Origin: Halostella salina
GTDB lineage: Archaea; Halobacteriota; Halobacteria; Halobacteriales; Natronoarchaeaceae
DNA: 64,000 nt
NCBI RefSeq assembly: GCF_003675855.1
Contig: NZ_RCIH01000001.1
Location: forward strand, 124,001-188,000
Reading direction: 5' to 3'
Made by a program: the position numbers and the translations under genes. This document shows positions 42,249 through 46,703 of this stretch, piece by piece. The notes under the pieces were generated by a model that worked only from the letters and a program-made list of their open reading frames with translations, had not been told where the DNA came from and searched no databases. Position 1 is the stretch's first letter; the number at the start of each line of letters is the position of its first letter.

Positions 42249-43217
42249 GTGCAGTGGATCGTCGACCTGCTCGTCGGGACGGTCCTCCCCCGGGTCGCAG
42301 GGATCACCCTCTTCATCGCCCTCGGGGTCGGGCTGGCCAACCTCGCCGTCGAGTTCGGAGCCGTGCGGTACATCGCCGGCCTCGCCGCGCCGCTGACCGG
42401 CCCGGCGAACCTCCCGCGGGAGGTGGGTACTGCGATCCTCACGACGACCGCCTCCACGACCGCCGGCTACGGCATGCTCGCGGAGTTCCGCGAGTCGGGC
42501 ACGCTCGACGACCGCGCGACGCTGGTCGCCGTGACGATAAACACCTTCTTCGGCTTCGTCCAGCACATCTTCACGTTCTACGCGCCGGTGTTGATCCCGA
42601 TCCTCGGGCTGGAAGTCGGCCTGCTGTACGTCGGCACCCGCGCCGCGGTCGCGCTCGGGATCACCGTCGTCGGCGTGCTCGCCGGCGCCGTCCTGCTCTC
42701 CGAGGAGAACGTCGACCCCGTCGCCCTGCCCGATGACGTGGAGGGGCCGGACCCCGACGAGAGCACGCTCGGCGAGAAGTTCCGCGGGGCGGCGACGGCG
42801 ACGAAGGAGAAGGTCGTGGACATCGTTCCACGCCTGCTCGTCATCTACTTCCTCGTCAGCGTGCTCGTCGCCCGGGTCGATCTACGGGAGGCGACCGCTG
42901 TCGCCGAACCGTTGACCGACATGGTCGGCCTCCCCGGGGCGGCCGTCCCCGTGATCGCGGTCTTCGCGTTCGACACGACGAGCGGAGCCATCGCCATCGC
43001 CCCGCTGCTTGGCGACCCGTTCACGCCCCGGGAGGCCGTGGCGGCGATGCTCGTCGGCGGGATCGTCTCCTTCGCCGTCTCGACGTTCAAGCGGTCGATC
43101 CCGTTCCAGTACGGGATCTGGGGCGCGGAGTTCGGCTCGAAGGTGATCGCCGTCAACACCGCGCTGAAGGTCGTCTTCATCGCGGCGGCGCTCGCGGTGT
43201 TGCTGGCCCCGCCGTGA
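42249..43217 (+). CDS. Nucleoside-recognition (Gate) domain membrane protein
   Basis: 322 aa, GTG start. About eight TM segments with the Gate-domain signatures TTASTTAGYGMLAEF and FDTTSGAIAIAPLLG. A hydrophilic loop (about 155-190) divides two halves. These proteins are thought to transport or gate nucleosides or related solutes; substrate unknown. Its last 41 bp overlap the MinD-like gene in convergent orientation. Confidence 0.82.
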   Translation: MQWIVDLLVGTVLPRVAGITLFIALGVGLANLAVEFGAVRYIAGLAAPLTGPANLPREVGTAILTTTASTTAGYGMLAEFRESGTLDDRATLVAVTINTFFGFVQHIFTFYAPVLIPILGLEVGLLYVGTRAAVALGITVVGVLAGAVLLSEENVDPVALPDDVEGPDPDESTLGEKFRGAATATKEKVVDIVPRLLVIYFLVSVLVARVDLREATAVAEPLTDMVGLPGAAVPVIAVFAFDTTSGAIAIAPLLGDPFTPREAVAAMLVGGIVSFAVSTFKRSIPFQYGIWGAEFGSKVIAVNTALKVVFIAAALAVLLAPP

Positions 43218-43860
43218 CCGCGTCGGCGACCCCGCGGAGGCGCTCGGCGGCCGTGCTCCCCGGAGCAACCTCACTCACCGGGACGCCAGCGCGCTGTGCC
43301 CGCCTGACGGCCTCGGACTCCGGGACTGCCGTCGCCGGCGCGCCGAGCGCCCGCTCCACGCGGCCGGTCGGCGGCGACGACCCGGACATGTTCAGCGCCA
43401 CGTGGGCGACGCCGGCGTCGAGTTCGCGGGCGAGTTCCCGCGTCCGGACCAGGTCCCTGACGGCGAACTCGTCCGGACGGGCGACCAGCACCGACCGGTC
43501 GGCGGCGAACAGCGGCAGGCCGGCGTCGGCCGCCATCCCGGCGGGGCAGTCGACCACGACGGACCCGTAGGCGTCGGCGACGGCCGTCACCGCGTCGACC
43601 AGCGCCGTCGGGTCGGCGGCCCGGGCTCCGGCGAGCGTCCGTCCACAGGGGAGCAGGTCAACCGGGCCGCCTTCCCGAACCGCCTCGACGGGGTCGGCCC
43701 GGTCCACGAGCACGTCGTGGAGGTCCGGTCCCGTCGAATCGGGCAGGTCCGCCATCCCGAGGTCGGCGTCGACGACGACCGCGTCCAGTTCCGCTCCGAG
43801 GTTGAGCGCAACGGTCGACTTCCCGACGCCGCCTTTCCCGCCCGCGACGGCGAGGATCAC
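43177..43860 (-). CDS. MinD/ParA-like ATPase
   Basis: 227-aa deviant-Walker ATPase. VAGGKGGVGKST (KGGxGKS with the signature Lys9) starts the protein, followed by VVVDADLGMADLPDST, VVVDCPAGMAADAG and a LNMSGSS loop near residue 160. It dimerises on ATP and often positions cargo on membranes or DNA. A C-terminal amphipathic membrane-targeting helix of bacterial MinD is not evident. The GTG start at 43860 overlaps the stop of the upstream gene by 4 bp. Last gene of a four-gene operon with no FtsZ or MinC near. Confidence 0.9.
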   Translation of the reverse strand: MILAVAGGKGGVGKSTVALNLGAELDAVVVDADLGMADLPDSTGPDLHDVLVDRADPVEAVREGGPVDLLPCGRTLAGARAADPTALVDAVTAVADAYGSVVVDCPAGMAADAGLPLFAADRSVLVARPDEFAVRDLVRTRELARELDAGVAHVALNMSGSSPPTGRVERALGAPATAVPESEAVRRAQRAGVPVSEVAPGSTAAERLRGVADAVTAGPATPRAPPR

Positions 43861-44558
43861 GACAGCGTCCGGAGCGGCGCGAGGTCGGTCGCCTCGGCGC
43901 TCCCCTCGGCACGGTCGGCCAGCGCCGCCGCGCGCCGCTCGACTGCCCGGAGCGTCGCGGCGTCGTCCGCGGCTTCCTCGACCGCGCGCTCGACAGCCCC
44001 GAGTCCCCCGGCGTCGTCGACCACCGCCGTCGCCTCGGCGAGCGTCTCGGCCCCGGCGCAGGCCTCGACGGTGCGGACCCGCGACTCGACGGTTGCGAAC
44101 CACTCCGCGACCGGCGGCGGCACGTCCGGTTCGGGGCCGTCGCGGTCGCGTTCGGCCGACGGCGCGTTCGCGGCCGGCACCGCGTCCCGCGGCGGCGCGG
44201 GGTCTCCGAGCCGCCGGACCAGTGCGGCCGCGTCGTCCGGAGTGGGATCGCTGTCCACACCGTTCCCCACGCCCTCGGGCGTCACCCGCACATCCTCGAC
44301 GACCCGAATCGCCGGCGACTCCGGGGCTGTGTGGCTGGCGAAGCCGACGCCCTCGCGCTCGCCCGGTTCGAGCGTCACCGTGACCGCGTCGCCGTCCCAG
44401 CCGTCGGCGGGGACGCCGTGTCTGCGTGGCGGTAGCGTCGGCCCGTCGAGCGCGTTCTCCAGACGCACCCGCCGGCGCACGTCCGTCCCGTTCCGGACGA
44501 CCGCCGCGACGAGCGTCACGCCGTCCTCGCGCCGCGTCCGACTCTCGACCTCGACCAT
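43857..44558 (-). CDS. Unknown haloarchaeal protein, operon gene 3
   Basis: 233 aa. The N-terminal half (about 1-95) is beta-rich with VESRTRREDGVTLVAAVVRNGTD and VTVTLEPGERE, resembling a small Ig-like or CARDB-type domain. The C-terminal part (about 135-230) is helical and Ala/Glu-rich (VERAVEEAADDAATLRAVERRAAAL). No catalytic motif. Overlaps the MinD-like gene by 4 bp; 25 bp after gene 2. Confidence 0.68.
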   Translation of the reverse strand: MVEVESRTRREDGVTLVAAVVRNGTDVRRRVRLENALDGPTLPPRRHGVPADGWDGDAVTVTLEPGEREGVGFASHTAPESPAIRVVEDVRVTPEGVGNGVDSDPTPDDAAALVRRLGDPAPPRDAVPAANAPSAERDRDGPEPDVPPPVAEWFATVESRVRTVEACAGAETLAEATAVVDDAGGLGAVERAVEEAADDAATLRAVERRAAALADRAEGSAEATDLAPLRTLS

Positions 44559-44583
44559 GGCGACGCTGGCCGCGCTCTCGCAC

Positions 44584-45408
44584 TTAAACCCTCACGACGG
44601 GTGCGCCGAGGCGTTCGGCTGCAGCGCTCGGGCGTTCGAAGCGGTCACAGGCGAGGACGACCGGCGCGTCGACCGCCGCGACGCGGACGACGGCGAGCGC
44701 CGCGGTCACGGGGTCGCCCTCGAAGCCGGCCGGCGGGTCGGTCACCCGGCCCTCGCCCGGCACCGCGTCGACGGCGTCCGCGAACTCGCTCGCGAGGGCG
44801 GCCGCAAGGTGTTCCCGTGCGGTCCGCCGGCGGTTCGCCACCCTGTCCTCCAGCCGGAGGCGGCGGTCCCGGGCGTCGCGGGCCGCCCGGGCGGTCTCGC
44901 GGGCGCTCCGGAGCGCCTGCTCGGCGGCGATGCGTTCGGTCCGGACCTCCGACAGTTCGCGTATCGCCGCGGTGCGCTCGTCGTCCACCGCGTCGGCGTC
45001 ACCCTCGGCCGCGGCCGTTTCCAGCGCCTCGACGCGCCCGCGGAGTTCGCTGACGCGCTCCGCGAGGGCCGCCTCGCGCTCGCCCGCCTCCGCGACGCGT
45101 CGGCGCGCGGTCTCGCAGTCGACGGACGGCGGGTTGAGGTTCGCCAGTTCCGCCCGCGCCTCGGCGAGTTCGTCGTCGACCGGACTCGCCAGCCCCCGCG
45201 AGCGCGCGGCGGCGGCCAGCGCCGCTCGGACAGCCACCGTCGATCCGGCGACGACCGGCGAGACTCGCTCGTGTACCGGTCCGGGGTCGGCACAGTCGAT
45301 CCAGTCGGCATCCCCGACCGCGCGGTCGACCGTCGCGGGCGAGAAGTCGCTGTCCCGGAGGTCGACCGCTCGCCCGTCGCGGACGCCGTCGTCCAGTTCG
45401 ACCCTCAC
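44584..45408 (-). CDS. Coiled-coil protein, operon gene 2
   Basis: 274 aa from a GTG at 45408. A central coiled coil (about 80-200) contains RVAEAGEREAALAERVSELRGRVEALE, framed by an N-terminal region with a WIDCADPGPVHERV segment and a C-terminal small globular part (ALAVVRVAAVDAPVVLACDRFERP). Resembles haloarchaeal DUF7856, but I am not certain. Its start overlaps gene 1 by 4 bp. Confidence 0.7.
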   Translation of the reverse strand: MRVELDDGVRDGRAVDLRDSDFSPATVDRAVGDADWIDCADPGPVHERVSPVVAGSTVAVRAALAAAARSRGLASPVDDELAEARAELANLNPPSVDCETARRRVAEAGEREAALAERVSELRGRVEALETAAAEGDADAVDDERTAAIRELSEVRTERIAAEQALRSARETARAARDARDRRLRLEDRVANRRRTAREHLAAALASEFADAVDAVPGEGRVTDPPAGFEGDPVTAALAVVRVAAVDAPVVLACDRFERPSAAAERLGAPVVRV

Positions 45409-45743
45409 AGCTCCCGCTCCCGCAGGCGTTCCGGCGACGGGTGGTCGGTGCCCGCCACGAACTTGGCGTACGGCGTGCTTGTGGCGTCCCGGTTCTCGTA
45501 TGCGGCCGCCGCTTCCCGGACGGCGTCCGGCGCGTCGGCGAACTCGTTGAACGGCTCCGTCCGCTCTACCTGCACGTCCCCGCCGTGTTTCTCGCGGAGT
45601 CGGAGCGCGAGCAGCGCCCCCAGCTCCGTCGCCTCGAACAGCGCCGCGCGGCCGAACCGCCGGACGACCGTTCCCTCGTGGCTCGAACAGACGTTCCGCA
45701 ACGTCTGCCGTGCCGCCTGCGAGTACGTGACGATGAGCAGCAC
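45405..45743 (-). CDS. Small unknown protein, operon gene 1
   Basis: 112 aa from a GTG at 45743. Starts MLLIVTYSQAARQTLRNVCSSHEG and has a helical C-terminus (DAVREAAAAYENRDATSTPYAKF). No recognised domain. It heads the four-gene operon; a strong TATA box lies about 20-30 bp upstream. Confidence 0.68.
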   Translation of the reverse strand: MLLIVTYSQAARQTLRNVCSSHEGTVVRRFGRAALFEATELGALLALRLREKHGGDVQVERTEPFNEFADAPDAVREAAAAYENRDATSTPYAKFVAGTDHPSPERLREREL

Positions 45744-45750
45744 GCACCAC

Positions 45751-45774
45751 CGTTCGAACGCATAAATTTAATAC
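45751..45774 (-). promoter_or_regulatory. Promoter of the MinD-like operon with a short palindrome
   Basis: On the minus strand GTATTAAATTTATG (45761-45774) is an AT-rich TATA box, followed by the palindrome CGTTCGAACG (45751-45760) between it and the expected start near 45743. The operon thus has its own promoter and probably a bound regulator. Confidence 0.6.
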
Positions 45775-45778
45775 TTTA

Positions 45779-46375
45779 CTACTGGAATCTACTGCCACGG
45801 ACGGCGGTCGTCCCATCGTCGTCGATCCGAACCGCGGCGTCGAACACGGTCTGTATCTGCGCGACGACCAGCGCGGAGTGGGCGTCCGGGTCGAGGTGGA
45901 AGTGGCCGGTCGCGCCGAACGCGTACAGCCGGCCGGTCAGGACGTGGAGGAACTCGTACACGGTCTCGACGTCCACGTACTGGAGCAGCGCCGTGACGGA
46001 GTCGAAACAGACGACGCTCTGGGCGTCCGAGTCGGCCCACTCGTTCAACACTTCGCTCACGCGGATGCTGATCCCCGTCAGGTCGTTCGGGGTGCCGACC
46101 CGTTCGACCCTGTCCGGCTGTGGCCCCTCGGCGTCGAACCCGTCGGTGCTCTCGCCGGAGGCGAGGACGTACGTCGCCGCCGGCCGACCGCCCGCCCGGT
46201 CGATCCACTCGGCGAGTCGGCGCTGGGGCGAGCCGGTAAAGGAGACGAACAGCAGGTTCGTCGGCTGGTCGGACGGGTGGAGGAGGTCGACACAAACTGA
46301 TCCGTCGTCCGCGGCCGCCGGCGCGAGCAGGACCACCGCTGTCGCGTCCCCGACCGAGTCGGCGAGGTCACTCAT
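45779..46375 (-). CDS. KaiC/RecA-like protein with degenerate P-loop
   Basis: 198 aa. The core resembles haloarchaeal KaiC-like proteins: VVCFDSVTALLQYVDVETVYEFL (Walker-B-like) and YAFGATGHFHLDPDAHS. The Walker A site is replaced by LLAPAAADDGSVCVDLL without GxxxxGK[ST], so ATP binding is unlikely. Possibly a structural or regulatory ATPase relative, similar to halophile 'DUF7504' proteins (memory only). Position between MCM and the MinD-like operon is notable. Confidence 0.72.
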   Translation of the reverse strand: MSDLADSVGDATAVVLLAPAAADDGSVCVDLLHPSDQPTNLLFVSFTGSPQRRLAEWIDRAGGRPAATYVLASGESTDGFDAEGPQPDRVERVGTPNDLTGISIRVSEVLNEWADSDAQSVVCFDSVTALLQYVDVETVYEFLHVLTGRLYAFGATGHFHLDPDAHSALVVAQIQTVFDAAVRIDDDGTTAVRGSRFQ

Positions 46376-46427
46376 CGTCGACCCATGCTGTTGAGTTGGA
46401 CCGGCCGTCCCGGCAAAACCCTTCCGG

Positions 46428-46703
46428 TCACTCGTCGAGCTGCTCGACGGCCACCTCCCGATCCACGCCGGAGAGGTCACGCACCCGCTCGCGGGCCTCC
46501 CGCCGGGACTCGGCGACGACCACCAGCCCGTCGGCGGGGCCGTCGCCCTGCGCTCGATACGGCGCGAGCCCGCCGTCGAACTCGGTCGCGTACGTCCGTA
46601 CCACGCCGACGACCTCGCGTTCGAGGCTCTCGAGGTCCGTCTCCCCCTGCTCGTACTCCGCGAGCGCGTCCTCGACGTTTCTGAGTGCGGCGATCCGGTC
46701 CAT
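46428..46703 (-). CDS. Small unknown protein downstream of MCM
   Basis: 91 aa: NVEDALAEYEQGETDLESLEREVVGVVRTYATEF, a helical region, then beta strands DGLVVVAESRREARERV. Its ATG at 46703 abuts the MCM stop (46704), so the two are cotranslated. No domain recognised. Confidence 0.65.
   Translation of the reverse strand: MDRIAALRNVEDALAEYEQGETDLESLEREVVGVVRTYATEFDGGLAPYRAQGDGPADGLVVVAESRREARERVRDLSGVDREVAVEQLDE

Follow-up and report, generated by a model that had tools for sequence, protein, structure and literature searches.

A DUF7857-MinD1 gene pair behind mcm in Halobacteria with an apparent genetic tie to a type IV pilus machine

We analysed a 64,000-nucleotide stretch of the Halostella salina genome (RefSeq assembly GCF_003675855.1, contig NZ_RCIH01000001.1, positions 124,001 to 188,000; hereafter the window), in which four minus-strand genes lie behind mcm, the gene for the replicative helicase, and the last of the four encodes a deviant-Walker ATPase of the MinD/ParA type. 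Judged by locus numbering and by profile matches in a control search, this ATPase is most probably orthologous to Haloferax MinD1, and we use that name here. Among the three genes that precede minD1, only the one directly before it, encoding a protein of the Pfam family DUF7857, is an inseparable partner. Comparison across Halobacteria establishes the pairing, a promoter-like sequence of the pair's own, the sharing of its element with other genes, clustering and co-occurrence; by islands, element and co-occurrence, the pair appears genetically tied to a type IV pilus machine. With a probability of about 0.6, we propose that DUF7857 and MinD1 form an ATPase-adaptor pair that would place or control a pilus and DNA-handling machine.

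The pair and its promoter

We searched 194 whole genomes of Halobacteria with DUF7854, DUF7855, DUF7856, DUF7857, the C-terminus of MCM and a profile of MinD1, and joined the results, the MCM table listing 150 genomes; 80 loci were fetched for comparison of gene order. A clear score gap separates MinD1 orthologues, at 203 bits or more, from paralogues, at 157 bits or less. We found 145 MinD1 copies in 142 genomes, and 143 of these copies have DUF7857 as the next gene upstream, in the same orientation; of the two exceptions, one (genome G146) is a contig end and the other (G128, locus L091) carries a divergent DUF7857 that was detected with its own profile. DUF7857 and MinD1 are therefore an inseparable pair. 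The initial annotation had suggested the neighbouring genes as partners of the ATPase, and this holds for DUF7857, which stands beside MinD1 in effectively every genome and location. It is not supported for DUF7855 or the coiled-coil protein DUF7856, as DUF7855-DUF7856 occurs without MinD1 in 8 genomes and MinD1 without DUF7856 in 31. When the neighbourhood is tabulated across the class, as that annotation had advised, the third gene travels with MinD1, but the first two genes and the linkage to mcm vary. The fetched loci break at the same borders, and a single partner set made of the first three genes was ruled out, the modules separating across genomes. DUF7855 is present in all 119 genomes with DUF7856 and adjacent to it in 118, the exception being a contig break.

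The four genes most likely form two transcription units, DUF7855-DUF7856 and DUF7857-minD1, rather than the single operon first described. All four are present, with 4-bp overlaps between DUF7855 and DUF7856 (45405-45408) and between DUF7857 and minD1 (43857-43860), but DUF7856 and DUF7857 do not overlap, and the 25-bp gap between them (44559-44583) holds a second TATA box and a conserved element, which argues for two units. The GC content at third codon positions is 0.88-0.90 for all four genes. An A/T-rich box peaks at -35 to -26 before DUF7855 in 35 of 46 loci, in agreement with the TATA box initially noted there, and more sharply before DUF7857, in 40 of 49; no such peak was seen in the same locus comparison before DUF7854, DUF7856 or MinD1.

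The element in the window, TTTAAGTGCGAGAGCGCGGCCA, lies 8 nt before the DUF7857 start codon, overlaps the stop codon of DUF7856 and occurs once in the 64 kb. Its consensus before DUF7857 is TTTAA-N3-CGA-N3-CGCGGCCA, with its end most often 8-9 nt from the ATG. Past the TATA box, conservation amounts to 11.3 bits before DUF7857 versus 1.6 bits before DUF7855, where the locus comparison revealed no conserved element. Most relocated pairs without the DUF7856 stop codon retain the TATA box together with some of the element, which rules out TTTAA as a by-product of that codon. A coding origin of the sequence before DUF7857 was likewise ruled out, by an in-frame stop in locus L032 and by variable spacing.

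Link to pilus genes

Across 21 genomes, the element pattern occurs about 70 times, versus 4 for the reversed control, and its coding matches are mostly placed 8-9 nt ahead of a start codon. Six genomes from six families hold one to six exact copies each, before recurring gene families: DUF7857, DUF7382, a divergent HerA-like ATPase, DUF7310, the secretion ATPase, a second ParA-type ATPase linked to DUF7125, and NucS_N-like zinc-ribbon, secreted PLD-type, Cas4-like, XPD-like helicase, TctA-like membrane and pilin-like proteins, some of these families having a copy with one mismatch. Pfam matches above the cut-off were obtained for HerA (DUF87), T2SSE, PLDc_2, DEAD_2, TctA and Pilin_N, together with DUF7310, DUF7311, DUF7382, DUF7283 and DUF7125; the NucS_N and Cas4 matches fall below it.

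Because the element itself led to the NucS-like and TctA-like sets, these are not independent of it, and an independent test was made on loci fetched by family and not by motif. Of 30 such loci for DUF7382, 26 have the element before the gene, as do at least 18 of 30 for DUF7310 (fractions counted by hand; an automated DUF7382 count, 15/70, includes overlapping frames). The element also stands before 20 of 31 secretion (pilus) ATPases and before the ParA gene beside DUF7125 in about 10 of 30 loci, and the reversed pattern gave no match in the family-fetched loci. By contrast with these pilus-set genes, no copy of the element was found before mcm or before its other neighbours (MinD1 0/65, DUF7856 0/68, DUF7855 0/71, DUF7854 0/59 and DUF7504 0/29; 0/292 together). 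The element occurs before pilus-set genes across the class where those genes are dispersed.

Physical clustering was surveyed in 20-kb stretches around pairs that lie away from mcm, or around second copies. Loci L323-L328, picked for a proximity already seen, all contain an island, as does L329, which was partly foreseen; the order in L323 is ParA2, DUF7857-MinD1, DUF7382 divergent from the HerA-like gene, DUF7310, DUF7311, the secretion ATPase and DUF7283. A further 23 relocated or extra copies (L330-L352) were picked solely because they lie away from mcm, and 22 of them stand with one or more linked genes, L333 being the exception. Twelve of the 23 have the secretion ATPase, DUF7310, DUF7311 or the HerA-like gene, and in five the second ParA is the sole linked gene.

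The presence or absence of DUF7310 agrees with that of DUF7857 in 58 of 59 genomes (P 4e-13, a value that ignores the tree and is inflated by the relatedness of the genomes), with 55 agreements for MinD1, 51 for DUF7856 and 49 for DUF7855. Concordant contrasts occur within four genera (g6, g7, g13 and g14), and the match between DUF7310 and DUF7857 is not only one of deep ancestry, because both vary together inside these genera.

Two further observations concern the element. The second ParA/MinD-type ATPase, with the motif KGGCGKTT and DUF7125 (loci L365, in the window's own genome on contig C3, L263-L281 and L323-L352), carries the element in roughly one in three of its loci and is found clustered with relocated copies of the MinD1 pair, so that one system may be served by two MinD-like ATPases. 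Behind the same element there is also a conserved non-coding stretch, about 100 nt long and starting GTGACCTGAC, in the window's own genome (L150/L200 and L151/L206; C2:332274- and C3:298877+) and in L145, L154, L155, L157, L162, L163, L166, L175, L176 and L186. Twelve distinct copies fold to a common stem whose arms, by eye, seem to covary, and an Rfam search of the stretch gave no match; it is a candidate haloarchaeal non-coding RNA.

Proposed role and alternatives

Alignment of 40 MinD1 orthologues showed invariant residues G8, K9, G10, G11, G13, T16, D31, D33, D104, A107 and G108. The protein keeps a deviant Walker A (KGG motif), switch I residues D31 and D33 and a Walker B with DxxAG, features that place it in the MinD/ParA superfamily. 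Its best solved relative is MinD (1hyq, E 7e-42), archaeal MinD structures being the closest and FleN/FlhG the next, and it scores 114.9 bits against the archaeal MinD family TIGR01969, under the curated cut-off of 201.75; it is a divergent MinD branch. Neither MinC nor MinE families were seen among its neighbours. An AlphaFold2 model of DUF7857 (predicted local distance difference test, pLDDT, 88) has an N-terminal beta-sandwich and a C-terminal helical hairpin, and as many family members have no hairpin, it is probably the beta domain that serves as the partner. DUF7855 is modelled (pLDDT 96) as a ferredoxin-like beta-alpha-beta-beta-alpha-beta fold with a helical tail, for which no solved fold matched with E <= 0.001, and a PDB profile search of DUF7857, DUF7855 and DUF7856 gave only coiled-coil or chance matches.

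We propose that the four genes form two adjacent units, DUF7855-DUF7856 (with mcm-DUF7854 upstream) and the independently promoted DUF7857-MinD1, and that the latter would work in the manner of MinD-family ATPases that act on surface machines, such as FleN/FlhG and TadZ. MinD1, from its conserved motifs, would bind ATP and dimerise, and the obligate pairing suggests that the beta-sandwich domain of DUF7857 acts as its adaptor or regulator, presumably through physical contact. As the cargo to be positioned we propose a haloarchaeal type IV pilus system, comprising the secretion ATPase, the DUF7310 coiled coil and DUF7311, along with the HerA-like/DUF7382 and nuclease-like proteins that appear co-regulated with the pilus. 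MinD-family ATPases commonly place surface machines, and the simplest account is that DUF7857-MinD1 is a separately encoded MinD-type regulator of the pilus and of co-regulated DNA-processing proteins. The machine would probably move or process DNA at the cell surface, since HerA-, NucS-, Cas4-, PLD- and XPD-like proteins are members; we regard DNA as its putative substrate, and DNA handling as a lead, not a result. More tentatively, and with clearly lower probability than the placing role itself, an undescribed regulon of Halobacteria, recognisable by TTYAWNNNCGANNNCGNGRCCA at 8-9 nt ahead of the start codon, may build a type IV pilus-based machine for DNA import or exchange with DUF7857-MinD1 as its spatial regulator. 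The equally tentative membership would be the pilus, the HerA-like ATPase, the secreted PLD-type nuclease, the NucS- and Cas4-like proteins, the XPD-like helicase and the TctA-like membrane protein.

Several points weigh against the placing role, besides the inflated co-occurrence P values. Haloferax volcanii lacking all four minD genes is described as having no growth or division defect, and motility equal to that of the minD2/4 mutant, in the relevant passages of two studies (PMC11588486, PMC11621097). No conserved C-terminal membrane-targeting helix was found in the MinD1 alignment, the tail varying in length and sequence, and the predicted DUF7857 fold has no significant solved-fold match (none with E <= 0.001). 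Six relocated copies in other families (L353-L358) lie outside islands, one of them (L357) with DUF7382 next door and no other island gene. In genus g20 (G035, G036, G048 and G098; L045), DUF7857 and pilus genes are kept and MinD1 is absent, which suggests that DUF7857 has a role of its own. Lastly, most genomes have the pair behind mcm, and a link with that locus may in part persist.

In an unlikely alternative, close to the initial annotation, MinD1, the coiled-coil DUF7856 and DUF7857 act on chromosomes or replisomes and are kept beside mcm for that reason. The order mcm-DUF7854-DUF7855-DUF7856-DUF7857-MinD1 is indeed kept across several families, and in Halobacteria as a whole the arrangement is common, well above what chance would give. 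Of 108 genomes with both genes placed, 71 have MinD1 no more than 7 kb from mcm, and DUF7854 lies close behind mcm in 75 of 80 with both located; the mcm neighbour is not private to this strain. However, the pair is away from mcm in the other 37 of 108, about one third, whereas DUF7854 remains with mcm when other genes relocate. Departed pairs mostly land beside pilus, HerA-like or second-ParA genes, and the independence of MinD1 from DUF7856 and the distribution of the element described above likewise speak against a replication module. The weak resemblance of DUF7856 to SMC-like proteins is confined to the coiled coil, and an SMC/MukB relationship was set aside as coiled-coil background. A replication link of MinD1 is not supported.

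Similarly improbable is that the element marks a general core-promoter class, read by one transcription factor variant (e.g. a particular TFB) at many weak leaderless genes, with MinD1 not tied to the pilus set. The element does overlap the TATA-to-start region and also precedes the non-coding stretch and some unrelated-looking genes, but a genome holds only about one to six exact copies, before the same gene families in different families of Halobacteria, and the physical islands and co-occurrence do not depend on it. A selfish or defence-type cassette, that is, a mobile or anti-virus island of HerA-like, Cas4-like and nuclease-like proteins joined by MinD1, is very improbable: two of these proteins, the HerA-like and the Cas4-like, resemble defence families and presence is patchy with repeated losses, but MinD1, DUF7857 and DUF7855 gave no defence-family match, the core members are the pilus ATPase, DUF7310 and DUF7311, and the dispersed co-regulated form is unlike a cassette.

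The locus and related systems

The features of the locus are collected in Table 1. The upstream KaiC-like protein without a visible P-loop and the 91-aa protein abutting the mcm stop, both initially annotated, correspond to DUF7504, found in only part of the 80 fetched loci, and DUF7854. In Pfam, DUF7854, DUF7855, DUF7856 and DUF7857 are four separate named families of unknown function, and our literature search found no paper naming them. DUF7855-DUF7856 tracks the mcm-linked DUF7854, not MinD1 (116 genomes with both DUF7856 and DUF7854, 4 discordant), and in a few f4 genomes (L095-L097) DUF7855 is still behind mcm and DUF7856 is absent. Long insertions in the mcm product were read as two inteins. 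The convergent gene on the other side of minD1 overlaps its end by 41 bp and is conserved there only within the window's genus.

Table 1. Features of the minD1-mcm locus (positions in the window)
Feature	Positions	Strand	Basis
Convergent membrane protein gene	42249-43217	+	Pfam Gate just under cut-off
minD1, MinD/ParA deviant-Walker ATPase, 227 aa, GTG start	43177-43860	-	Pfam ParA/CbiA, above cut-off
DUF7857, 233 aa, ATG start	43857-44558	-	PF25256 E 1e-33; 116.8 bits vs gathering cut-off 27
Promoter element, TATA box TTTAA at 44584-44588	44567-44588	-	Conserved sequence before DUF7857
DUF7856, coiled-coil protein, 274 aa, GTG start	44584-45408	-	PF25254 E 2e-80
DUF7855, 112 aa, GTG start	45405-45743	-	PF25253 E 7e-59
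TATA-like box of DUF7855-DUF7856 unit	45763-45773 (about)	-	About 25 nt before DUF7855 start codon
DUF7504, KaiC-like domain, optional gene of mcm locus	45779-46375	-	PF24336 E 1e-33
DUF7854, 91 aa, ATG directly after mcm stop codon	46428-46703	-	PF25252 E 2e-36
mcm, replicative helicase, 1750 aa	46704-51956	-	Open reading frame; helicase part matches 194/194 genomes

The closest known counterpart is H. volcanii MinD1 (HVO_0225), a MinD-family ATPase at the corresponding place near mcm; the functions of MinD1-3 are undescribed in the passages on them in PMC11621097 and PMC11588486. Orthology is judged likely because mcm (HVO_0220) and MinD1 lie near each other in that genome, and the profiles of DUF7854 to DUF7857 all match H. 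volcanii in the control search; a separate scan of named genomes with the single DUF7855 protein returned 9 loci, none of them from H. volcanii. The new findings are the division into two units, the promoter element and the connection to pilus genes; through them MinD1, a protein without a described role, acquires a promoter, an obligate partner and a putative cargo, each open to test in H. volcanii.

Among haloarchaeal MinD proteins that act on the placement of surface machines, MinD4 and MinD2 are reported to affect the placement of archaella and chemotaxis arrays in Haloferax, and MinD2 also has a conserved neighbour, HVO_0596 (PMC11588486, in its account of these proteins). MinD1 is a different paralogue with a different partner. 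No clear MinE-like partner is identified for haloarchaeal MinD proteins in the corresponding text of PMC11621097. FleN/FlhG and TadZ are alike in being deviant-Walker ATPases genetically tied to a filament machine; unlike them, MinD1 has the obligate partner DUF7857, is short, and usually lies behind mcm, apart from the pilus operon. Archaeal FleN/MinD ATPases encoded elsewhere have been predicted as type IV pilus regulators, in the section of a census concerned with them (Makarova et al. 2016, PMC4858521). The same census describes halobacterial subclade 4F pili, whose ATPase has an extra Cys-containing N-terminal region and which have a unique cytoplasmic coiled-coil protein. Our secretion ATPase and DUF7310 fit that description, DUF7310 being compared with arCOG07564 by description only; its passages on 4F describe no shared promoter element, and neither HerA-like/DUF7382 nor DUF7857-MinD1 as members (PMC4858521).

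Haloarchaeal DNA exchange and uptake have long been observed, with few components known, and if the DNA-handling reading is true, the genes collected here would be candidates for either process. A works-like comparison can be drawn with the crenarchaeal Ups pili and Ced DNA import, where type IV pili are combined with a DNA-moving ATPase (CedB); these belong to a different lineage, and the likeness is drawn at the level of function.

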